The notes under the pieces: generated by a model
The model's database searches: none
Told to the model about the DNA's origin: nothing
What the model saw: the letters and a program-made list of their open reading frames with translations, nothing else
Part shown: piece by piece, positions 2,716-12,743 of the stretch
How positions within the stretch are numbered: the stretch's first letter is position 1
Layout of the letters: the number at the start of each line of letters is the position of its first letter
From: an uncultured Spirochaetaceae bacterium
GTDB taxonomy: Bacteria; Spirochaetota; Spirochaetia; Treponematales; UBA12059
Length of the DNA: 13,518 nucleotides
Assembly: GCA_938004315.1 (NCBI GenBank)
Contig: CALKWG010000413.1
Span: forward strand, 1-13,518
Direction of reading: 5' to 3'
Position numbers and translations under genes: made by a program

Positions 2716-2752
2716 GGCCGCTCGCGGCCGCCCAGGCGGGGGACTCGTCCCT
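2716..2752. terminator. Weak paired hairpins between convergent genes
   Basis: The 39 bp between the glutaredoxin stop and the opposing stop contain GGCCG-CTCG-CGGCC (2716-2729) and GGGA-CTCG-TCCC (2740-2751). The second is followed on the plus strand by a TATTTATC stretch. Both stems are short and share a CTCG loop. Position suggests a bidirectional terminator, but the lack of a real T-run keeps this tentative. Confidence 0.3.
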
Positions 2753-3854
2753 ATTTATCCGACTTAAGCCCGGCTCCGCAGAGCGGGATCAGAGCATCGG
2801 CCCCCGGCTCATCAGGATCCCTGGTCAGCCATGCCAGATACGCGGCGTAGGTCGCCGCCGTCGTGTGCTCGACGTAGAGCCCCTTGGCGGCGAGCGCTTC
2901 GCGCGCAGCCAAGATATCGGCCTCCGGCGCCGCGACGAACTCGGCGCCGAGCTCCCGCGCCTCGCGGAGTATACGCCGGGCCCGCGCCGGCTCGCCGATG
3001 GCTATGCCCTCGGCCAAGGTCGGAAGCGTCAATGATGGCGCGGCGGTCTCGGCCCCCGCGGCGGCGGCTTCGACCAAGGGGGCGCAACGCTCGCTCTGCA
3101 CCGCGACCACGCGAGGGAAGGCCTTGATAAGCCCCGCCGCGAGGAGCTCCTTCAAGGCTAGGCTTACGCCTAGGAACAGCGTCCCGTTGCCGACCGGTAT
3201 GAAGAGGACCTCGGGCAAACGACCCAACTGCTCGTAGACTTCGTACAGGTAAGTCTTCGTGCCTTCGTAAAAGAGCGGATTGAACACGTGGCTGGCGTAA
3301 TACGCCCCGTCGCGCCGCACGGCCTCGCGGCAGGCGCGCGCCGTGTCGTCGCGGCTGCCGGGCACGACGACGAGCGCGGCGCCGTGGGCCTTGATCATGG
3401 CCATCTTGCGGGGGGAGGTACCCTCGGGCACGTAGATCTCGCAGGCGACGCCTGCCCGGGCGCAGTAGGCGGCGACCGCGTTGCCGGCGTTGCCGCTGGA
3501 ATCCTGGACCACCCGCCCGACGCCGATATCAGCGCAGTGGGCGGCCAGGACGGCCGCCCCCCGGTCCTTGAACGAGAGCGTGGGCATGAGGTAGTCAAGC
3601 TTCGCCAGGGTACGACCGTCCAAGCGGACGACGGGCGTCCTACCCTCCCCCATGCTCATCCGCCGCCAGGCTTCGCCGGCCAGCGGCATGAAGCGCCGGT
3701 AGCGGAACAGGCTCCATTCGCTTTGGTCGACGAGGGCCGGGTCGTAACTCGGCGCCTCGCTCCGCAGCTCGAAGAGCCCGCCGCAGGCGCAGGCCGGCTC
3801 GCGGGTATCGAGGGGGTAGGACGAACCGCAGTCGGGGCAGTAAAGCTCGCTCAT
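2751..3854 (-). CDS. Threonine-synthase-like PLP-dependent enzyme (fold type II)
   Basis: The 367-residue protein has the layout of threonine synthase. An N-terminal zinc ribbon (Cys6, Cys9, Cys22, Cys24 in CPDCG and CACGG) is followed by the PLP lysine Lys96 in PTLSFKDRGAAV, the substrate loop SSGNAGN (119-125), and the phosphate-cradle glycine loop PVGNGTLFLG (220-229). Threonine synthase converts O-phosphohomoserine to threonine. Close relatives perform other beta/gamma eliminations or replacements (cysteate synthase, serine/threonine dehydratases), so thrC is the default name but not proven. It starts 5 bp after the stop of the aminotransferase gene with no strong ribosome site of its own, suggesting translational coupling. 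It is the last gene of the symporter-racemase-aminotransferase series. No homoserine kinase or dehydrogenase gene is nearby, which leaves an alternative substrate open. Confidence 0.82.
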   Translation of the reverse strand: MSELYCPDCGSSYPLDTREPACACGGLFELRSEAPSYDPALVDQSEWSLFRYRRFMPLAGEAWRRMSMGEGRTPVVRLDGRTLAKLDYLMPTLSFKDRGAAVLAAHCADIGVGRVVQDSSGNAGNAVAAYCARAGVACEIYVPEGTSPRKMAMIKAHGAALVVVPGSRDDTARACREAVRRDGAYYASHVFNPLFYEGTKTYLYEVYEQLGRLPEVLFIPVGNGTLFLGVSLALKELLAAGLIKAFPRVVAVQSERCAPLVEAAAAGAETAAPSLTLPTLAEGIAIGEPARARRILREARELGAEFVAAPEADILAAREALAAKGLYVEHTTAATYAAYLAWLTRDPDEPGADALIPLCGAGLKSDK

Positions 3855-3859
3855 GCACT

Positions 3860-5146
3860 CTAGGCCAGGAGGCCGCTCGCCGCTTCGTCGATCGACCTGA
3901 AGACCTTGGCCAGGTTCTCGAGGTCGACGCTGGAGTAGGCGACGCGCAGGTACTTGTCCTGGAAGGAGATGGTGCCGATGCCGTAGCGCTCCAGGAGCAG
4001 GCGCCGCAGGGCCTCGGTCTTGCCGACGGACGAGTAGAAGGTCATGAAGTAGCCGGAGTTGAACGGCAGGGCCTTGAGCGGCCCCTTCATGGCCGCGACG
4101 AGGCGCTTGGTCTCGTCGTAGCGCGCCTTGATGGCGGCGAAGGTGGCGGCCTTCTCCTCTTCGTGGCTCGGCGACTCCAGGGCCTTCAGGACCAAGGCCT
4201 GGCCGGGCGTATTCGAGCAGGAGATAGAGGCGCGGATGCTCGCCATGGCCTTCTGGATCAAGGCCTCGTGCGCGGCCTGGGAGAGTCCCTTAGCGGCGAA
4301 GGACAAGAAGCCCACGCGGAGGCCCCAGACCAGCTCTTCCTTGGTGGCGGCGTCGGCCTTCACGGCCAGCACGTTCTCGTGCAGGTCGGCCAGCTCGACG
4401 AACATCGACTCGGTCCGTATACCGGCCTCGTAGAAGAGGCCGAAGTAGGCGTCGTCGCAGACGGCCACGATCGCGGTACCGCGCTCCGCCTCGGCCTTGA
4501 TGGCTGCGGCGATGGCGGCGCCTTCGTCGGCGCGCAGGCTGTAGCCGGTTGGATTATTCGGGAAGTTCAGGACCATGAAGGCCTTCTTACCGCGGGCCTT
4601 GGCCAGGGCGGCCGAAAGACCCTCGACGTTGTAGCCGCCGGCGGCGTTGAAGAGCGGATAGCCGATAATTTCTGCCGAAGACTTCTCGGCGAAGATGAGG
4701 TCGTAGTTATCCCAGACTAAGTCGGGCACGACGACCGCGTCGCCCGGGTCCAGGAAAAGCTCGGCCAGGATGGAGATGCCGTGGGTGAGGCCCGTGGTCA
4801 CCACGGGCAGGCCGAAGGGTTTAGCGGACAGGCCGGGGTTCTTCAGCAGGGTCTGGGCCTTCCAAGCCTCGCGCAGCTTAGGCAGTCCGGCGGTCGGGGC
4901 GTAGGGGAAGACCTCGCCCAGGCCCAGCTGCGGTAGGGCGCCGCGTATGGCCGACAAGTTCATCGGGGCGCCCTTGTCGGTGGCTATGCCGATGGTGGCG
5001 TCGACCGCGTAGGCTTCTTTCTTCGCCTCCGCCGACTGGGCGATGATGCCCTTGGGGAAATACATGCGTCGGCCGAGGGCCGAGAGGGCCCTGCCGGCGA
5101 CGCAGCCGTCCAGCACCGCGTTGAGTTCCTGGGCGATGGGGTTCAC
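3860..5146 (-). CDS. Class I (fold type I) PLP-dependent aminotransferase
   Basis: A soluble aminotransferase of 428 residues, moving an amino group between an amino acid and a 2-oxo acid. Visible landmarks are PYAPTAGLPKLREAW (81-95), the PLP-contact loop NFPNNPTGY (194-202), DDAYFGLFY (231-239; Asp/Tyr contact PLP), the Schiff-base lysine Lys269 in ATKEELVWGLRVG (eight residues before Arg277), and Arg401 in YLRVAYS, which should hold the substrate alpha-carboxylate. The start is GTG (5146-5144) with AGGAG six bases upstream. Amino-donor specificity cannot be read from sequence. The symporter and racemase upstream suggest aspartate or glutamate. A 94-bp gap separates it from the racemase gene, and it is followed at 5 bp by the threonine-synthase-like gene. 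Confidence 0.9.
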   Translation of the reverse strand: MNPIAQELNAVLDGCVAGRALSALGRRMYFPKGIIAQSAEAKKEAYAVDATIGIATDKGAPMNLSAIRGALPQLGLGEVFPYAPTAGLPKLREAWKAQTLLKNPGLSAKPFGLPVVTTGLTHGISILAELFLDPGDAVVVPDLVWDNYDLIFAEKSSAEIIGYPLFNAAGGYNVEGLSAALAKARGKKAFMVLNFPNNPTGYSLRADEGAAIAAAIKAEAERGTAIVAVCDDAYFGLFYEAGIRTESMFVELADLHENVLAVKADAATKEELVWGLRVGFLSFAAKGLSQAAHEALIQKAMASIRASISCSNTPGQALVLKALESPSHEEEKAATFAAIKARYDETKRLVAAMKGPLKALPFNSGYFMTFYSSVGKTEALRRLLLERYGIGTISFQDKYLRVAYSSVDLENLAKVFRSIDEAASGLLA

Positions 5147-5240
5147 GAAGCGCTCCTTTTTTCGGCCCCGCGCGCTCGGGGCGCGTCGGAGCCGTCGCCT
5201 ACCAGGGCGGGGTGCGCGGCACGCCCCCGTATTTCCCTGT

Positions 5241-6023
5241 TTAGGCCCGCGGCGCCAGCTTGGCGGGCGCCGCCTCCCGCAGCATGGCCCTGGCGAGGGC
5301 CTCTACGGGATCTAGTAATGGCATACCGTATAAGGGGCTTTCAGTCAACGCAAGCGGGAGCTCGGTGCAGCCCAGGATTAGGACCTCGGCGCCGCCGTCG
5401 GCCAAGAGCCTAGCCATGGTAAAGAGCTCCGTGAGCGCCCGCTCGCTGGCCGGATAGCAGGCCTTGAGACCCCAGGAACGGTCATAGATGCAGGCGTGCA
5501 GGAGCTCCTGCATGGCTTCGGGGACCTGGATGACGCGCGCTCCCGAGTCCGCTAGGGCTCGCTCGTAGAGGCCGACGCGGCGGGTGCCGGTCGTGGTCAT
5601 GAGCCCGACCGCCCGGGCGGCGGGATAGGCTTCGCGGAGGGCGGCCGCCGTCTCGGCGATCATGTCGATGACGCTCAGGGCCGAGCCCAGGGCGGCAGCC
5701 TTCGCGGCCGCGAGCTCCTTGAAGGGATCGAAGATGGGAGCCGCATGGAAGGTGTTACAGGGCACGCCGACGACGACGCGCCTCGGCGCGAAGCCCGCCA
5801 AGGCCATGCCGAGCGCCGCGCCCATGCCGATGGCCGGATTCTCCCCCGTTTTACCTAGGAGATAGTCCGTACGGTCGGGGATAGAGCCCGAGAGCGAGAG
5901 GTGGCAGAGGTCGGGGTGATCCCCGTCGCCCGAGGCCAAGGTGTTGCGCACGATATGGCCGTGGAGGGCGACGCCGGCCATGGGCCCGACGCCGCCGCCG
6001 ATGATGAGCGCTGCTTCGTCCAT
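5241..6023 (-). CDS. Aspartate/glutamate racemase-family protein
   Basis: Members are cofactor-independent racemases that use two cysteines to remove and replace the alpha-proton of aspartate, glutamate or related acids (hydantoins in some relatives). This 260-residue protein has both: Cys89 in GVPCNTFHA and Cys219 in ILGCTELPL. It also has the N-terminal glycine loop IIGGGVGPMAG and the LMTTTGTRRVGLYE segment (141-154). Length is normal for the family. ATG 6023-6021 is supported by a CCGGAGA ribosome site. It lies 90 bp downstream of an acidic-amino-acid symporter gene, separated by two hairpins, and upstream of an aminotransferase gene. This context favours a catabolic or interconversion role for D/L-Asp or Glu over cell-wall supply by MurI, whose motifs differ. 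The exact substrate is not determined. Confidence 0.88.
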   Translation of the reverse strand: MDEAALIIGGGVGPMAGVALHGHIVRNTLASGDGDHPDLCHLSLSGSIPDRTDYLLGKTGENPAIGMGAALGMALAGFAPRRVVVGVPCNTFHAAPIFDPFKELAAAKAAALGSALSVIDMIAETAAALREAYPAARAVGLMTTTGTRRVGLYERALADSGARVIQVPEAMQELLHACIYDRSWGLKACYPASERALTELFTMARLLADGGAEVLILGCTELPLALTESPLYGMPLLDPVEALARAMLREAAPAKLAPRA

Positions 6024-6040
6024 ACGGTCTCCGGGAAGGA

Positions 6041-6062
6041 GGCGGCCGCGGGGGCGGCCGCC
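6041..6062. repeat. Perfect 9-bp GC hairpin in the symporter-racemase gap
   Basis: GGCGGCCGC (6041-6049) and GCGGCCGCC (6054-6062) are exact inverted repeats with a GGGG loop. On the minus-strand transcript the structure ends about 17 bases before the racemase ATG and just before its ribosome site, so it could limit translation of the racemase or stabilise the downstream mRNA. See the companion hairpin at 6072-6102. Confidence 0.5.
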
Positions 6063-6071
6063 CGGGGGATG

Positions 6072-6102
6072 GCCTGCCGGGCTTCGTCGAGCCCCGGCAG
6101 GC
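6072..6102. repeat. 10-bp stem-loop after the symporter gene
   Basis: GCCTGCCGGG (6072-6081) and CCCGGCAGGC (6093-6102) pair perfectly around an 11-base loop that can itself pair in part (CTT with GAG). It follows the symporter stop codon (6116-6114) by about 11 bases on the minus-strand transcript. It has the stem of a terminator but no T-tract. A leaky terminator or a 3'-end stabiliser that lowers racemase expression relative to the transporter is the likely role. Confidence 0.5.
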
Positions 6103-6113
6103 TGAAGCTTAGA

Positions 6114-7430
6114 TCAAGAAGCCCACTTGGACTGGTCGAGCTCGCCTTCGGTCTTGGCCACGATGACGGTGCCGACCATGTCGCCGGTGACGTTGAGGCT
6201 GGTGCGGCCCATGTCGAGCAGGGCGTCGATGCCTAGGATCATGGCGTAGGCCGCCGCGACGGCGGAGCCTTCGGTGACCTTGAGGCCGATGGACTCGAGC
6301 ACCATGAGGAGCATGATGGCGCCGGCGCCCGGCACGCCCGCGGTGCCGATGGAGGCCAGGGTCGCCGTGATGATCACGGTGAGCTGCTGATTGAAGGTCA
6401 GGGGCTGGCCGATTGCGTAGCCTATGAACATGGCGCAGACGCCCAGGTAGATGGCGGTGCCGTCCATATTGATAGTGGCGCCCAAAGGCAGGCTGAAGGA
6501 GCTGATGCTGCGGGGCACGCCCATGTTGTCCTCGGTGTTGCGGAGGGTGATGGGAAGGGTGCCGCCGGAGGAGCGGGTGACGAAGGCGGTGATCATGGCC
6601 TCGTTACCGCGCTTTAAGAACTTGACGAGGCCGAACTTGAAGACCGCGAGCACGCCGCCGTAGACGCCCACGAGGTGGACGATGAGGCCCAGGTACACCG
6701 TCAGCGTCACGAGGAGGAGGGGACCCAAGGCCCGCGCGCCCTGCTGGGCGAAGACGATGGAGATGAGGGCGAAGACGCCGATGGGGGCGTATTGCATGAT
6801 GCCGTGGACGACCTTGTACATGGCCTCGACGGCGCCGTTCGCCAGGTCGAGCACGGTCGCGCCGGCCTTGGCCAGGCCCGCGTCCTTGGAATCCTTGACG
6901 TAGGACAGGGCGATGCCGAAGGCTACCGAGAAGAAGATGATCGGGAGCACGTCGCCCTTGGCCAGCGAGTCGATGGGGTTGGTCGGGATGATGTTGAGGA
7001 GAACCTGCACCAAGGTCGGGGCCTGGGCGGCCCTGCCCGCGGCGCCGGCGGCGCCCACGATGCCCATGCCCAAGCCCGGGCGGAAGATGTTGGCGAACAC
7101 GAGGCCGATGGTGACGGCGAAGGCGCTCGTCAAGAGGTAGTAGGCCATGATCTTAACGCCCACGCGGCCTAAGCGGTTGGGGGCGATGCTCGCCGCGCCC
7201 GCGATGAGCGAGAGGAAGATCACCGGCACCACGATCATGCGTAAGAGCCGCACGAAGACGTCGCCGAAGGGTTTAACCCAGTCGACGAAGGCCTTGACCG
7301 CGTCGGGCGTGAAGCCTAAGACCACGCCGACGGCGATACCGGCGACAAGGCCGATGAGGATGCGTAACAGCAGGTTCGACTTAAAGTACCAATCGAACGC
7401 GCCCTTTTTCTTGGATTTCTGATCGCCCAT
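6114..7430 (-). CDS. Glutamate/aspartate:cation symporter (DAACS/GltP-like)
   Basis: A 438-residue inner-membrane secondary transporter of the dicarboxylate/amino acid:cation symporter family, taking up acidic amino acids or dicarboxylates with Na+ or H+. The N-terminus is Lys-rich and followed by about eight hydrophobic helices. Signature pieces are the HP1 hairpin RSSGGTLP (286-293), NMDGT (321-325) in TM7, the HP2 tip SIGTAGVPGAG (360-370), and TM8 LLDMGRTSLNVTGD (404-417). Aligned by eye with archaeal GltPh, Asp406, Arg409, Thr410 and Asn413 match the substrate-binding Asp394, Arg397, Thr398 and Asn401. The arginine marks preference for side-chain carboxylates (Asp/Glu) over neutral amino acids. 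ATG 7430-7428 follows an AAGGAGT ribosome site. First gene of the series; the AT-rich patch and palindrome at 7516-7542 are its probable control region. Confidence 0.94.
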   Translation of the reverse strand: MGDQKSKKKGAFDWYFKSNLLLRILIGLVAGIAVGVVLGFTPDAVKAFVDWVKPFGDVFVRLLRMIVVPVIFLSLIAGAASIAPNRLGRVGVKIMAYYLLTSAFAVTIGLVFANIFRPGLGMGIVGAAGAAGRAAQAPTLVQVLLNIIPTNPIDSLAKGDVLPIIFFSVAFGIALSYVKDSKDAGLAKAGATVLDLANGAVEAMYKVVHGIMQYAPIGVFALISIVFAQQGARALGPLLLVTLTVYLGLIVHLVGVYGGVLAVFKFGLVKFLKRGNEAMITAFVTRSSGGTLPITLRNTEDNMGVPRSISSFSLPLGATINMDGTAIYLGVCAMFIGYAIGQPLTFNQQLTVIITATLASIGTAGVPGAGAIMLLMVLESIGLKVTEGSAVAAAYAMILGIDALLDMGRTSLNVTGDMVGTVIVAKTEGELDQSKWAS

Positions 7431-7515
7431 AACGACTCCTTAGGTACATGCTACGGCCGACCGCTCGAAGCGGACCCTGGCCTATTCGGAGTCTAGGGGC
7501 GTTTTAGTCGGCGCG

Positions 7516-7542
7516 ATATGCACCAAAAGGTGTATTTTTATA
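7516..7542 (-). promoter_or_regulatory. Palindrome and AT-rich promoter patch upstream of the symporter
   Basis: CACCAAAAGGTG (7521-7532) is a perfect palindrome. The arms extend imperfectly to ATATGCACC and GGTGTATTT, i.e. about 9-bp half-sites around AAAA. The minus strand next to it reads TATAAAAATACACC, so a -10-like TATAAA lies at 7542-7537 and the predicted start would fall inside the palindrome, about 100 bases before the symporter ATG. No good -35 is visible at the right distance (the DNA there is pure GC), which is typical of an activator-dependent promoter. The adjacent NarL-type regulator is the natural candidate to bind here. This is inference from position. Confidence 0.5.
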
Positions 7543-7543
7543 C

Positions 7544-7577
7544 GGGGTCCGGGCGGCGGCGCCGCGCCGCGTACCCC
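7544..7577. repeat. GC-rich inverted repeat downstream of the response regulator
   Basis: GGGGT (7544-7548) and ACCCC (7573-7577) flank a GC-rich core that contains the palindrome GCGGCGCCGC. On the minus strand this would fold about 35 bases after the response regulator stop, but it is followed by A-rich, not T-rich, sequence. It could end or attenuate transcription from the kinase/regulator pair before the symporter promoter, though it lacks a classical terminator tail. Confidence 0.3.
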
Positions 7578-7612
7578 AAGCGGGGGCCTCCCGGTTCGTG
7601 CATCGGGCAGTA

Positions 7613-8278
7613 CTAGATAAGGCCTTCCTCAAGAGCCTTGCGCACGACCTCCGCCTTCGAGCTGACGTTCAGCTTTTGATAAATATGCAGGATATGCTTC
7701 TTCGCGGTGGACGCGGCGATATGGTGCTTGTCCGCCAACTCCCGATAGGTCAAGCCCTCTACGACGTCGCGCAGGACCTCGAGCTCGCGGGCCGTCAGGG
7801 CGTAGTCGACGGTCCTGGCGGGGGCGGCCTTGCGGAGCTCCTCCAGGATGCGCCTGGCCACCGTCGGGCTGATGGGGGAGCCGTCGCCCGAGGCGCTGAC
7901 GATTTGGTCGATCAAGGCTTCCGGCTTAGTGTTCTTAAGGATGTAACCGGTCGCCCCGGCCTTTATAGAATCGAGGATAGCGTCCTGATCCTCGAAGATA
8001 GTCAGGATGAGGACCACGAGCTCGGGCCAGCGGCCTTGGAGTAGCCTGGTCGCCGCGATACCGTCCATGCCCGGCAGATGGATGTCCATGAGGACGATAT
8101 CCGCCTGGCCGCCGGTTTCCAAGAACTGGATGAAGTCCTCGGCCTTAGCGAAGGCGCCGGCGATTCTAAGGCGCCCGTCCAAGCCCAGGAGGTAGCGTAG
8201 GCCCTCGCGGACGTCGCGCTCGTCCTCCACGATGGCCAAGGCCAGCTGCCCGCCGGGGCGGGCGTTACGCGCTATCAC
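7613..8278 (-). CDS. NarL/FixJ-type response regulator (REC-LuxR HTH)
   Basis: A 221-residue transcription regulator of a two-component system. The receiver domain (about 12-130) has the acidic pair Glu18/Asp19 in AIVEDE, phospho-acceptor Asp65 in VLMDIHLPGMDG, Thr93 and Lys115 in GYILKN. The LuxR-type DNA-binding domain (about 158-218) reads YALTARELEVLR, then GLTYRELADKHHIAASTAKKHI. The start is GTG (8278-8276), which overlaps the kinase stop codon (GTGA), with GGAGG seven bases upstream. This predicts coupled translation in equal amounts with the kinase. It gives an 11-residue lead before the domain. The next gene downstream is the symporter, 182 bp away behind a palindrome, so the amino-acid genes are its most likely target. 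Confidence 0.94.
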   Translation of the reverse strand: MIARNARPGGQLALAIVEDERDVREGLRYLLGLDGRLRIAGAFAKAEDFIQFLETGGQADIVLMDIHLPGMDGIAATRLLQGRWPELVVLILTIFEDQDAILDSIKAGATGYILKNTKPEALIDQIVSASGDGSPISPTVARRILEELRKAAPARTVDYALTARELEVLRDVVEGLTYRELADKHHIAASTAKKHILHIYQKLNVSSKAEVVRKALEEGLI

Positions 8279-10107
8279 GTACGAGCCTCCGCGACGAGCT
8301 CGTCGCCCTCTTCGCGCCCCTCGGCGAGCGCCGCCAGCGGGAGCTCGACGGCGAACGACGCGCCCTTCCCCGGCTCCCCGCGTACGGACAGCGCCCCGCC
8401 CAGGCCCTCGACGCGGTAGCGCACGTTATTCAGGCCCGAGAGCTCGCGGCCGCCGGGGAGGCCTGAGAAGCCGCGGCCGTCGTCGGCGTAGCTGGCTCGG
8501 ATACGGCGCTCGTCGGCGTCGATGCGTAGCCGCGCCTTCTGGGCGCCCGCATGCTTCAAGGTATTGCTCACCAGCTCCTCCAGGACCGCCGCCAGCTCCC
8601 GGCGCGTCTCGAAAGGAGCTTCGTCATAGGCGGCGCGCCCGGCGATACGGCACTCGAAGGCCAAGCCGCCGTCCTGAAGGCGCCGCCGTATGCCGGCCGC
8701 CAGGCTGGCGGCGCTGTATTCGGCCACGGCTTGGCCGTCCCGCATGCCGTGCACGATCTCCCTGAGCTTCTGCACGCCCTCGAGGCAGTTGCGTTCGACG
8801 CCGGATAGGGCCTCGACCAGCCGCGGGTCCGCTTCCGAGGCCAGGGACGAGGCGACGCCGTTGCAGAAGAAGATATTGGTCAGCTTTGCGCCTATGGAGT
8901 CATGGAGGTCGCGGTAGATCCGGGTGCGCTCCTCGGCGACGCGGAGCGCCGTCACCTCGCGCTGCAGGGACAAGAGCTCGTCGGTGCGCTCGCGAACCTT
9001 GGCCTCCAGGTCGCTCGAATAGCCGTCGGCCGTATCGAAGAGCTTATTAAGCTCGGCCCCCAGGATGCCGAACTCGTCGCCCGAGCGTATCTTGACGCGG
9101 GCGCCGCGATCCCCGCCTTCCTTGGCCGCGATGACCTTTACGATGTCCCCCAGGGGCATGAGCACGAGGCGCCCGCTGATGGCCGCCACGGCCAACAGGA
9201 GTAGGGTCATCATGATCAGGTCGAAGAGCGTGACGACGCGCAGGAGCTCGACCGTGCCCTCTTGGATGGCCGCGTTCGGCATGCCGATGACGAGGGTCCA
9301 GTCCGGCCGCTCCATGCGGCGATAGACCATATGCGTACTATAGCCGTCGACGAGCGCGTCGAACGAGCCTCGGCCCGAGGCGGGACTCTCGTTCAGGCCT
9401 TGTAGCTCGGCTCGGCGGAGCCCCGACTGGTCCGGGCCGCCGAATTCCGGGAACTGGCTGGCTATCACGAAGCCCGAGCTATCCAGAAGCATCGCCCGGC
9501 CCGCCATGGGGATCTCCAGGGTGGTGAGCACCCCGGCCAGGCTATCGAGGAGTATATCCATCCCGAGTACGCCGACGAAGCGCCCTCCCGCTCCGTAGAC
9601 GGGGAGGACGCAGGTTATGCCGATGGCCTCGACGCTGGCGTAGAGATACGGCGGGGAGACGCTGAATCCGCCCGACTCCAAGGCGACGCGGTACCAGGGG
9701 CGCTTCCTCGGGTCATAGCCGGGGGGGAAGGTCGGGACATGATCGACGAAGCCCTCGCCGTAGCCCCATTCGTACATCAGGCCGTCCTCGGTCCCGAGGT
9801 ATATAGCGCGTAGGAAGTCCTTCCTGGCCAGGACGTGCGAGAGGAAGAGCTCGCGCATGCGCGACGGATCGGGCTCGCGTAGCTCGGGCATCGACGCGAG
9901 CGCGACGGACAGCGACTCGAGCTCGTTGAAGAACTGCCCGAGCTGGCGCTCCGCCCGGTCGATGATGGCGCCGGCCAGCTCGTCCGCGCCGCGCAGGGCG
10001 TGGCGCCGTAGTAAATCCTGGCTGATGACGAGGGTAAGGGCCAGGAAAGACGCTACGGCGAGGGCTATGAAGAGGATGAATTTTTGGCTGATGCCGAGAT
10101 TCTTCAC
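8275..10107 (-). CDS. dCACHE-HAMP sensor histidine kinase, NarX/HPK7 type
   Basis: A membrane sensor kinase that phosphorylates the overlapping NarL-type regulator. From the chosen GTG start it has 610 residues: TM1 (about 10-30), periplasmic double CACHE domain (about 35-285), TM2 (about 291-316), HAMP (to about 370), a coiled stretch, a HisKA_3 dimerisation domain with His402 in YRDLHDSIGAKLTN, and a HATPase domain with N-box Asn515 in EELVSNTLKHA, G1 DDGRGF (542-547) and GLNNVRYRVEGLGG (558-571). The CACHE domain holds YDPRKRPWY (131-139), Tyr154 and Asp184, matching the amino-acid-binding pattern of dCACHE_1 sensors such as PctA. The open frame reaches 10368 but overlaps the divergent gene and the promoter there. 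GTG 10107 is preferred over ATG 10131 because the predicted transcript starts near 10139 and only GTG has an AAGGCGG upstream. The ATG adds eight residues. Confidence 0.93.
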   Translation of the reverse strand: MKNLGISQKFILFIALAVASFLALTLVISQDLLRRHALRGADELAGAIIDRAERQLGQFFNELESLSVALASMPELREPDPSRMRELFLSHVLARKDFLRAIYLGTEDGLMYEWGYGEGFVDHVPTFPPGYDPRKRPWYRVALESGGFSVSPPYLYASVEAIGITCVLPVYGAGGRFVGVLGMDILLDSLAGVLTTLEIPMAGRAMLLDSSGFVIASQFPEFGGPDQSGLRRAELQGLNESPASGRGSFDALVDGYSTHMVYRRMERPDWTLVIGMPNAAIQEGTVELLRVVTLFDLIMMTLLLLAVAAISGRLVLMPLGDIVKVIAAKEGGDRGARVKIRSGDEFGILGAELNKLFDTADGYSSDLEAKVRERTDELLSLQREVTALRVAEERTRIYRDLHDSIGAKLTNIFFCNGVASSLASEADPRLVEALSGVERNCLEGVQKLREIVHGMRDGQAVAEYSAASLAAGIRRRLQDGGLAFECRIAGRAAYDEAPFETRRELAAVLEELVSNTLKHAGAQKARLRIDADERRIRASYADDGRGFSGLPGGRELSGLNNVRYRVEGLGGALSVRGEPGKGASFAVELPLAALAEGREEGDELVAEART

Positions 10108-10145: not shown

Positions 10146-10174
10146 ATTGTACAACGGCCGCGGGCGGGCGGCAA
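10146..10174 (-). promoter_or_regulatory. Promoter of the kinase-regulator operon
   Basis: On the minus strand, TTGCCG (10174-10169), a 17-bp spacer and TACAAT (10151-10146; five of six consensus bases) form a good sigma-70-type promoter. Predicted transcription start is near 10139, about 32 bases before the GTG at 10107 but only about 8 before the alternative ATG at 10131, which favours the GTG. Confidence 0.6.
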
Positions 10175-10276: not shown

Positions 10277-11065
10277 ATGAACCAAGACCAGGCGAAGGAA
10301 GCGCTGCTCAGGGTAGACGAATGCAAGACGGAGTTCAGCGTCGTATTCAGCGGCAAGAAGAGCTCCATGGTGAACGGCCTCTATAAGCCGCAGAGCCGCG
10401 AGATCATCATCCATAATAAGAATTTCGAGAACGACCAGCAGCTCATCTACACGGCGCTGCACGAGTACGCCCACCACCTACACTGTGAGCGCCGCCCCCA
10501 CCTGCCCGGCGCCCGGGCCCACAGCAACGAGTTCTGGGCCATCTTCCATGAGCTCCTAGAGAAGGCCGAGGCGGTGGGCGTCTATCGTTCGCTCTTCGAT
10601 CAGGAGCCGGAGTTCATCGAGCTTACCGAGCGCATCAAGGCGCTCCTGCCGCGGAACGGCGAGCTGATGCTGACGCTCGGCCAGCTGGTCAAGGAGGCCG
10701 AGGCCCTCTGCAAGAAGCACTTCGTCCGCTTCGAGGACTACATAGACCGCGCCGTGGGCGTGCCGCGGACGAGCGCGACGGCCGCCATGAAGGCGGCCGC
10801 CTATCAGGTGCCGGCCGAGCTGGGTTGGGACGCGATGAAGCTGGTCGCGGGCCTACGAAAGCCCGAGGCCCGCGAGGCGGCCGTGGAGGCTTTCAAGGCC
10901 GGCAAGAGCCAGGAGGCGGTCAAGTCGCTCGTGCGCGCAGAGCCGCCGTCGGAGGATCCGCGCGAGCGCCTCGATAAGGAGCGCGCCCGCCTCGAGCGTA
11001 CCATCCACAACCTGCAGGAGCGCCTGGCGACCGTGGAGAGCGAGCTGCAGAAGCTCGAGGGCTAG
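10277..11065 (+). CDS. HExxH zincin-like protein with C-terminal coiled coil
   Basis: I do not recognise a named family. The 262-residue product has a metallopeptidase-like zinc motif, His62-Glu-Tyr-Ala-His66 in ALHEYAHHLH, followed 16 residues later by His82 in AHSNEFWAIFHEL. That arrangement recalls the third-ligand helix of SprT/WLM-type minigluzincins. The region before it (IIIHNKNFENDQQLIYTALHE) fits the strand-helix that precedes the site in such folds. After about residue 125 the protein changes to helical sequence. This includes a possible helix-turn-helix (about 144-173) and a heptad-like coiled coil (228-261; DKERARLERTIHNLQERL). There is no signal peptide, so it should be cytosolic. 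ATG 10277 follows a GGGGGGA tract. A weak TAGTAT -10 lies at 10250-10255. Its stop is only 7 bp from the convergent lysO stop. Active protease versus DNA- or protein-binding role is undetermined. Confidence 0.8.
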   Translation: MNQDQAKEALLRVDECKTEFSVVFSGKKSSMVNGLYKPQSREIIIHNKNFENDQQLIYTALHEYAHHLHCERRPHLPGARAHSNEFWAIFHELLEKAEAVGVYRSLFDQEPEFIELTERIKALLPRNGELMLTLGQLVKEAEALCKKHFVRFEDYIDRAVGVPRTSATAAMKAAAYQVPAELGWDAMKLVAGLRKPEAREAAVEAFKAGKSQEAVKSLVRAEPPSEDPRERLDKERARLERTIHNLQERLATVESELQKLEG

Positions 11066-11072
11066 GGCGCGG

Positions 11073-12053
11073 CTAGAGGGCGTACACGAGCGGCACGAGG
11101 AATGGCACGAGCAGCGACAGCAGCGCCCCGCTCGTGAAGCTCACCGGCACCGCGGCGGGCCCGACGCATTGCTCTATCAAAGGTAAAGTCACGTCCATCG
11201 CCGTCGCGCCGCCGGCGCCGATGGCGGTATAGGGCCGCTTGCTCGCCGCTAATATGGGTATGAGGACGAGGGCCAGCGCCTCGCGGAGCATGTTCGCCAG
11301 GAACGCGGCCGAACCCAGGGCCGGGTCGCCGAGATCCGCTATAAGCACGCCCGAGAGGCTGTACCAGCCGAAGCCGGCGGCCAGGGCCATGCCTTTGCCG
11401 ATTCCAATGCTGAAGATAAGGGCGACGAGCGCCCCGCCGACAAGGCTTCCGACGGCCGTGGCCGCGGGCACGAGGATCGTGTCGACGCGGGCGAAGGCTG
11501 CCTTGAGCGAGAGGCCCGACTGGGCGAACTGCATACCTACCATGAACAAGAGCGCGTTCAAGACCCATCCGGTCACGGCCCCGTAGTCGAAGCCGCGGAG
11601 CTCGGGGCTCGCGACGCCGGCTATGGCGCCTACGACGACGACGGCTAAGAGGATGGCGGGCGCCTTGAAGTGGGCCCAGTCGACGCCAGGCCGAACATGA
11701 GCGGGGGCGCCGTGCGCGGGGGCGGGGGCGGGTTCGGTCGCGGCCGCGCCGCGGCCCGTAGCCCGGCGGCCGCGCGCGAAGTCGAGGGTCGCGTAGGCCA
11801 GGCGTATGGCCAGAACCGTGCCCGCCAAGGCTAGGACCGCGGTCGCCGTAGCCATGGCGCCGATCTCGCCCATGCGTTCGAAGAGCTCGCTCGAGTTCCC
11901 CAAACGGTAGCCCATGACGAAGAGCAAGGCCCAGAGCGTCAACTTTAAGAGGAAATCGACGACGACCGGCTTAGGCGCCAGCTTAAAGATCTGAAGCGCC
12001 GCGCCGGCCAGGAGAAAGGCGATGAGGACGGCTATTTGAAGGAGGGCGTCCAT
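11073..12053 (-). CDS. lysO: LysO-family lysine exporter (DUF340)
   Basis: An inner-membrane protein of 326 residues, mostly hydrophobic helices, related to E. coli LysO (YbjE), which exports L-lysine and confers resistance to toxic lysine analogues. Conserved family blocks are GFGWYSLSG (227-235), GSAAFLANMLRE (247-258), GGATAMDVTLP (281-291) and a LLSLLVPFL C-terminus. An Ala/Pro/His-rich linker (about 95-125) joins the two halves and makes it slightly longer than the roughly 300-residue E. coli protein. It begins 3 bp after the B3/4-domain gene with no clear ribosome site, so translation is probably coupled. It ends 7 bp from the opposing gene's stop. Family membership is firm; lysine as substrate is by analogy. 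Confidence 0.9.
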   Translation of the reverse strand: MDALLQIAVLIAFLLAGAALQIFKLAPKPVVVDFLLKLTLWALLFVMGYRLGNSSELFERMGEIGAMATATAVLALAGTVLAIRLAYATLDFARGRRATGRGAAATEPAPAPAHGAPAHVRPGVDWAHFKAPAILLAVVVVGAIAGVASPELRGFDYGAVTGWVLNALLFMVGMQFAQSGLSLKAAFARVDTILVPAATAVGSLVGGALVALIFSIGIGKGMALAAGFGWYSLSGVLIADLGDPALGSAAFLANMLREALALVLIPILAASKRPYTAIGAGGATAMDVTLPLIEQCVGPAAVPVSFTSGALLSLLVPFLVPLVYAL

Positions 12054-12056
12054 AGC

Positions 12057-12743
12057 TTAGGCTATCTCGAGCGCGACGGCGCTACGCGCGCCGGCGTGCG
12101 CGGCCAAGAGCTCGGCGAAGCGCTTGCCCACGGCCAAGAGGGCGTCGCTGCTATAGAGCGAAGCCGGGGCGTAGATGAAGCCGGCCAAGTCGACGCTGTC
12201 ATCGCGGAGCTTACCAGCCATGGAATCCTTGACCGGGTTCCCGAGCGGCCTACCCGCCGCGTCGCAGACGCAGAGGAGGCCCTCCAGGTCCATCTCGTGG
12301 CCGGAGGCGTTGAAGACGTAGGCTTCGCCGGCGCCGCAGATACGCACGGTCGCGCCTACGTCCGCGGCGCCGCCGCCCGACGCGTCGCCGAAGGCGCGCA
12401 GGTCGAGGAGGCTTATAGGTAAGCCCGTCTCCAATGAGAGGAGATTATTACAATCGACCGGGCCGTTGATGACGGGGAAGCGGCCCTCCCGGGCGGCCTG
12501 GGCTAGGTACTCGCTCGCCGGCTTCTGGCGGCCGGCGGGTTTATAGCCGCCGGCGCGGAGCATGCCGCGCACCGCGTCCTTGACGTCGGCCGGCGGAAAA
12601 TCCTCGGCAGCTCGCCGGGCCGCCAGAGCCTCGAGCTCGGCTACCAAGGCGGGGGGCGTCGTGGCGACGGCGCAGCCTTCGGCTAGGACGAGGCACACGA
12701 GGGTCGCGTCGAGGCGGGGGTCGTCGTCTTTATGGAGGGTCAT
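12057..12743 (-). CDS. Stand-alone B3/4 (PheT-like) tRNA-editing-type domain protein
   Basis: The 228-residue protein resembles the B3/B4 module of the phenylalanyl-tRNA synthetase beta chain, which in PheRS hydrolyses mischarged Tyr-tRNA(Phe). Free-standing versions are widespread and largely of unknown function. Typical pieces are GGYKPAGRQKPASEYL (65-80), INGPVDCNNLLSLETGLPIS (92-111), and a C-terminal part with NPVKDSMAGKLRDDS (169-183). There is no aminoacylation core, anticodon-binding domain or signal peptide, so it should act alone in the cytosol. ATG 12743-12741 has an AAGGAG site seven bases upstream. It is the first gene of a two-gene unit with lysO, 3 bp apart, which hints at a shared role in amino-acid quality control or homeostasis (inference). 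Confidence 0.85.
   Translation of the reverse strand: MTLHKDDDPRLDATLVCLVLAEGCAVATTPPALVAELEALAARRAAEDFPPADVKDAVRGMLRAGGYKPAGRQKPASEYLAQAAREGRFPVINGPVDCNNLLSLETGLPISLLDLRAFGDASGGGAADVGATVRICGAGEAYVFNASGHEMDLEGLLCVCDAAGRPLGNPVKDSMAGKLRDDSVDLAGFIYAPASLYSSDALLAVGKRFAELLAAHAGARSAVALEIA

Follow-up and report, generated by a model that had tools for sequence, protein, structure and literature searches.

The question raised by this locus is whether a run of six genes on one strand acts as a dedicated system for acidic amino acids, and which of the genes belong to it. The window, a stretch of 13,518 nucleotides of contig CALKWG010000413.1 from an uncultured Spirochaetaceae bacterium, carries on its minus strand consecutive genes for a sensor histidine kinase (8275..10107), a NarL/FixJ-type response regulator (7613..8278), an SDF/DAACS symporter (6114..7430), an Asp/Glu-racemase-family enzyme (5241..6023), a class I/II aminotransferase (3860..5146) and a threonine-synthase-like fold-II pyridoxal phosphate (PLP) enzyme, referred to as TSL (2751..3854). 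A sequence-only reading had taken these six genes for a system that senses, imports, racemizes and transaminates acidic amino acids. All six were present on the same strand, and chance matches were excluded because the Pfam scores far exceeded the cut-offs (in bits, SDF 400 vs 27.9, PALP 240 vs 35, Aminotran_1_2 100 vs 19.7, Asp_Glu_race 75 vs 31, dCache_1 80 vs 45, and Response_reg 79 vs 30.2). The kinase and regulator genes overlapped by 4 bases, and the following gaps were 182, 90, 94 and 5 bases. Comparison with related loci made it fairly probable that the locus contains a module for acidic amino acid uptake under the control of a two-component system.

Species genomes were scanned once with an alignment of the racemase, the only one of the proteins searched in the large protein set, and 80 loci were obtained, with the window outside the set. 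The genes for the kinase, regulator, symporter and racemase, with or without the TSL between the last two, were arranged in this order on one strand in 24 of the 80 loci (L032 had 2.6 kb between regulator and symporter), and the two-component pair was thus a neighbor of the transport and enzyme genes in relatives, as the sequence-only reading had anticipated. In 34/80 loci the racemase had as a neighbor, directly or across the TSL, an SDF symporter with 54% identity or more. The order was symporter-racemase-kinase-regulator in L044, and a cut regulator was found upstream in L001 and L052. L013, L014 and L031 started inside or at the symporter, and no kinase-regulator pair was seen in L034, L039, L046 and L048. 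A wider conserved neighborhood was rejected, as the families found in more than six of the 45 clustered loci were those of the racemase, symporter, regulator, kinase and TSL; the other frames that recurred as often looked, by position, like opposite strands of these five. In eight cyanobacterial loci (L071-L077 and L079), a racemase of 31-33% identity was separated by no more than about 1.3 kb from an SDF symporter, itself 23-26% identical and confirmed as PF00375 in L074. These loci included Planktothrix and Okeania, and the window-type regulator was not matched there.

The 182-base gap between the regulator and the symporter held a palindrome that the sequence-only reading did not mention, ATACACC-TTTT-GGTGCAT (minus strand, 7518..7535), with one mismatch to TACACC-N4-GGTGTA, a pattern chosen after the gaps had been inspected by eye. 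The pattern was scored in 29 gaps including that of the window, with the 300 bases preceding the symporter taken as the gap for L032, L034, L039 and L044. The best site had no mismatch in 9 gaps, one in 10 (the window among them), two in 8, three in L002 and four in L039; for the 27 gaps with at most two mismatches, the match was equalled by 0-2 of 200 dinucleotide shuffles per gap. L001, outside this set, had a site with one mismatch. The pattern was rare genome-wide: 13 exact sites were found in 25 genomes, eight in the regulator-symporter gap, one beside a paralogous kinase-regulator pair (G009) and four elsewhere, and the pattern read backwards gave two matches in the same genomes. Sites with at most two mismatches occurred at just 2 of 24 operon starts used as a control (the start in L132 being a guess), and autoregulation was rejected on this basis. 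In G017 the kinase-regulator pair was located about 22 kb from the symporter and the site remained with the symporter; the idea that the palindrome terminates the regulator gene was rejected for this reason. Many loci had another site-like match within the symporter gene itself, which was read as the codons of a conserved APIGVF, a coding coincidence.

The position of the site relative to the predicted promoter was often the same as well. A -10-like hexamer lay 22 nt past the 18-base site in 13 of 30 regions, and no other spacing between 8 and 44 nt occurred in more than six. In the window the predicted -10 box is TAGACT (7490..7495, minus strand), and the center of the site precedes the box by 31 bases. 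Written as TACACCA-AA-TGGTGTA, the site is a 7-2-7 repeat like that of NarL, with a half-site unlike NarL's, and by its letters the locus thus has the inverted repeat at a predicted target promoter that characterizes the NarL/FixJ family. Direct control of the symporter by the regulator via this conserved palindrome is likely. In E. coli, one NarL 7-2-7 site located 32 bp upstream of the -10 element is enough, according to PMC9314961.

As the 80 loci had been picked by the racemase, a second sampling was carried out through the regulator. Seventeen close copies were found in 16 of the 17 relatives searched; 15 of them lay beside the symporter, one (G017) was the distant copy described above, on apparently the same contig, and one (G009) preceded a TRAP transporter. 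Two wider searches, in which at most 31 or 15 candidates per genome were scored and the second of which used the L023 regulator as query, added 16 new genomes (G028, G032, G034, G035, G037, G039, G045, G071, G112, G113, G136, G153, G171, G182, G194 and G252), with G181 and G201 left out as their contigs match those of L032 and L044 in length. A site with at most two mismatches adjoined the regulator in 11 of these 16 genomes, and TACACT or TACAAT was found at 22 nt in six of the eight checked for spacing. The kinase, regulator and symporter stood together on one contig in G136.

Several results weigh against a system that is uniform or general. The exact six-gene set was found in none of the 80 racemase loci, and conservation of all six together was thus not supported. 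The distribution is patchy, because close regulators were present among the scored candidates in just 17/96 and 23/198 relatives. Within the 16 further genomes, the symporter directly followed the regulator in 10 and the racemase was beside the regulator in none, with the contigs of G045 and G112 ending too early to tell; a TRAP transporter followed in G171, the contig ended there in G194, and neither transporter was found in G028, G034, G035 and G113. Five of the 16 had no site with at most two mismatches (G034, G113, G136, G153 and G194, in one case because the contig stops there or nearby). The gap of G136 and G153 (L191:7500-7690 and L192:7600-7790) held a diverged palindrome, TGGGCCAAATGGCCCA, in which both half-sites were altered together. 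Ten of the 13 regions with the 22-nt spacing resembled each other closely in their sites and may represent a single clade. Finally, the same site preceded a TRAP transporter beside paralogous kinase-regulator pairs in two genomes, so the ligand and the target need not be aspartate. These pairs (L094:145-5589 and L193:1993-8192) have an exact copy of the site and lie ahead of a TRAP transporter of the DctP type, and for this reason the regulator family may control several transporters through one site type.

Since the regulator-sampled genomes had the symporter in 10/16 and the racemase in 0/16, the core of the system is the kinase, regulator and symporter, with the racemase as a frequent but dispensable partner. 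The same counts fit a stricter view, that these three genes alone are the regulated unit, next to which the racemase, aminotransferase and TSL lie by chance or as housekeeping genes. The aminotransferase agrees with that view, as it was in the cluster in one of the 80 loci and a relative of 46-52% identity was encoded elsewhere in 10 of 13 genomes searched. However, a close symporter adjoined the racemase in the 34 loci described above, the distant versions of both were close together in cyanobacteria, and the TSL remained in the cluster, though at varying positions. The stricter view is rather unlikely. The racemase and the TSL do not look like the housekeeping enzymes in the relatives, because a separate MurI was found in 19/25 and another match to thrC in 22/25. 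A genome-wide search for the racemase in eight of the 16 genomes gave a 36-39% match in three and none at E 1e-20 in five.

The kinase contains dCache_1, HAMP (below its own cut-off), HisKA_3 and HATPase domains by Pfam, and its sensor region matched the chemoreceptor PctA. The dCache_1AA motif, corresponding to Y121, R126, W128, Y129, Y144 and D173 of PctA, was intact in all 26 kinases aligned (that of the window and 25 relatives); the residue at the position of PctA D146 was Tyr or Phe in all 26. The kinase of the window is probably an extracellular amino acid sensor. It has every motif residue of the dCache_1AA receptors such as PctA, but D146 is replaced, and its ligand is assigned by inference. 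The roles of the motif residues were taken from PMC10104139 and PMC11237719. Of the dCache_1AA domains tested in PMC11237719, none is reported to have bound the D-amino acids tried, which speaks against D-isomers as the sensed signal. The start of the kinase is uncertain, as a longer frame opens at 10368 and the GTG at 10107 lies downstream of a weak promoter match ending at 10146. The regulator has the REC and GerE domains of the NarL/FixJ family. The pair is similar to NarX/NarL in its HisKA_3 kinase, its REC and GerE regulator and its 7-2-7 inverted repeat with a spacing functional in E. coli, but the sensor is a dCache_1 domain with an amino acid motif.

The symporter matched 6xwn, which we take to be GltTk, with 484 bits over nearly its whole length. 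The DMGRT motif was retained in 31/31 symporters and NMDG in 30/31, and the sequence contains PF00375 together with DMGRT-x2-N, the combination used to recognize GltPh-like proteins. In GltPh, the Arg of DMGRT holds the side-chain carboxylate of the substrate. The protein is probably an importer of aspartate (glutamate), judging from these matches. GltPh and GltTk, which we presume to be aspartate symporters although their PDB entries are titled glutamate symporters, share both motifs with the symporters compared here; they are archaeal, whereas the present symporter is bacterial and apparently under two-component control. Gene order, sensor motif and the site upstream of the symporter supported sensing and import under direct control, and the sequences give good support to a regulated module for the uptake of acidic amino acids. 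The closest known logic is that of AauR/AauS with AatJQMP in Pseudomonas, where acidic amino acid uptake is induced by acidic amino acids. AauR is the regulator that induces this uptake, and the role of the kinase AauS is called hypothesized in section headings (PMC7962211). AauR is a sigma-54 enhancer-binding protein that acts on an ABC transporter, whereas a NarL-type regulator is paired here with an SDF symporter and often with a racemase. The module appears to resemble the AauR logic but to be built from other parts, a familiar kind of nutrient circuit in a new combination.

The racemase retained both catalytic cysteines, C89 and C219, which were invariant in 36/36 sequences, and its R51 and K187 had Arg and Lys counterparts in the alignment with 1jfl, presumably from Pyrococcus horikoshii. 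It shares PF01177, both cysteines, the aligned lysine and an IPDRT motif with this aspartate racemase, but the window protein scored just below the cut-off of the aspartate racemase model TIGR00035 (87.6 vs 93.1). Of three relatives scored with this model, L023 (100.7) and L029 (101.1) passed and L015 had no listed match at E 1e-20. The best NCBIfam model was the cysteate racemase CuyB (NF052483), and membership was rejected as the score of 126.2 bits was below the cut-off of 190. A MurI function was judged less likely, as the separate MurI (TIGR00067) was above the cut-off in the 19 relatives mentioned above; none was above it in the other 6/25. In L029 (L029:4882-10762), the racemase came after amidohydrolase, DUF5058 and peptidase S58 genes in a run that also included an rpiR-type regulator. 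This run is suggestive of the use of D- or beta-linked residues. In L023, an unnamed gene whose start looks signal-like (L023:11871-12851) was located downstream of the racemase, and its relatives were found in 6/45 clustered loci.

The enzymes that accompany the racemase varied between lineages. The aminotransferase belongs to the PRK08637 family (504.7 bits, above the cut-off of 301), and its nearest structure was 2x5f. It was found in only one of the 80 other loci (L001, 76%), and a search of plasmids returned distant matches only, with 41% for the best. It was thus rejected as a regular member of the cluster, and in this respect the sequence-only reading was not supported; its sensing and import steps were supported by sequence, and its racemization is plausible. 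A NAD-glutamate dehydrogenase gene was found directly after the racemase in L005, L013, L017 and L057. The cysteines kept in 36/36 and the dehydrogenase behind the racemase in four loci make racemization and deamination plausible as accompanying steps.

The TSL was found in 13/80 loci, six times before the kinase (including that of L002, which was 36% identical and had other motif residues), six times between symporter and racemase, and once ahead of the racemase where a contig begins; in all of these it sits at positions different from that in the window. The protein starts with an N-terminal Cys-rich stretch and has the PALP fold and the Lys in SFKDRG, as do threonine synthases. This similarity is the basis of a biosynthetic explanation, in which imported aspartate is turned into threonine by a true threonine synthase. 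The TSL of L023 (178 bits), L007 (177) and L030 (172) passed the thrC cut-off of 167.1, as that explanation would have it, but those of the window (126.8 with TIGR00260), L002 (144) and L015 (130) failed, and the window protein missed the cut-offs of all the threonine synthase models that were listed. A Phe was present in the window TSL and in 13 cluster relatives where three threonine synthases have an Arg; in threonine synthase, the Arg at this position binds phosphate. Moreover, the best thrC match was a different gene outside the cluster, above the cut-off, in the 22 relatives with another match, the L007, L023 and L030 genomes among them. The housekeeping threonine synthase was judged a less likely identity for the TSL, and the biosynthetic explanation as a whole is very unlikely.

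A further explanation is that the substrate is 3-hydroxyaspartate, cysteate or another of the rarer acidic amino acids, for which an aspartate symporter might serve as carrier, with the racemase setting the isomer and a fold-II PLP enzyme eliminating ammonia or sulfite. In L032 and L043, the gene next after that of the racemase encoded a hydroxyaspartate-dehydratase/serine-racemase-like PLP enzyme, with BhcB as the best NCBIfam model (387 and 402 bits). The preference of the racemase for the CuyB model points the same way, as does the recurrence of a fold-II PLP enzyme, the TSL, in the cluster. Neither the cut-off of BhcB (550) nor that of CuyB was reached, however; the glutamate dehydrogenase of four loci points to glutamate, and no sulfur-metabolism gene was recognized among the annotated neighbors, the annotation being non-exhaustive. 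This explanation is quite unlikely.

For the regulated uptake module, the gene order, sensor motif, conserved site and promoter spacing are features of the DNA itself, and from them we infer the ligand, the phosphotransfer, the binding of the site and its sign, the substrates and the cellular role as follows. The extracytoplasmic dCache domain of the kinase would bind an amino acid, presumably L-aspartate or L-glutamate, and the kinase would phosphorylate the NarL-type regulator. The regulator would then bind the 7-2-7 palindrome, centered 31 bases upstream of the symporter -10 box, and activate the promoter. Aspartate/glutamate would be imported by the GltPh-like symporter, and the racemase, where present, would interconvert the D and L forms and make both usable. 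A lineage-variable nitrogen-removing enzyme (the aminotransferase, the TSL or the hydroxyaspartate-dehydratase-like PLP enzyme, or the NAD-glutamate dehydrogenase) would pass the carbon skeleton on. The most specific form of this proposal, in which a dCache_1AA kinase reads an extracellular L-amino acid and acts through the genome-rare palindrome on a symporter-racemase pair, with both enantiomers used and the deaminating step swapped between lineages, is put forward tentatively. The acidic substrate in that case may be Asp/Glu, and possibly also 3-hydroxyaspartate or cysteate, an assignment made with the same reserve. A literature search for this type of regulon (racemase/symporter/two-component, spirochaetes) found no description. 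If the explanation by a regulated uptake module is right, each step from the extracellular amino acid through a named DNA site and promoter to the importer can be put to the test in uncultured spirochaetes, and sensing by dCache_1AA domains would be connected with the use of D-amino acids, a common component of aged organic matter. The exchangeable enzyme is also a way into the threonine-synthase-like PLP enzymes, which may be misnamed in annotations.

Other genes of the window surround the six. A YruB-like glutaredoxin (2334-2711) is convergent with the TSL and scored just below the NCBIfam cut-off (86.2 vs 88.55). At 10277-11065, a 262-residue protein with an HEYAHH motif had no Pfam match at E 0.001 and is perhaps metalloprotease-like, as read from the motif. 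A LysO-type lysine exporter family protein (204 bits) is encoded at 11073-12053 and adjoins a gene at 12057-12743 with a B3/4-domain match below the cut-off.

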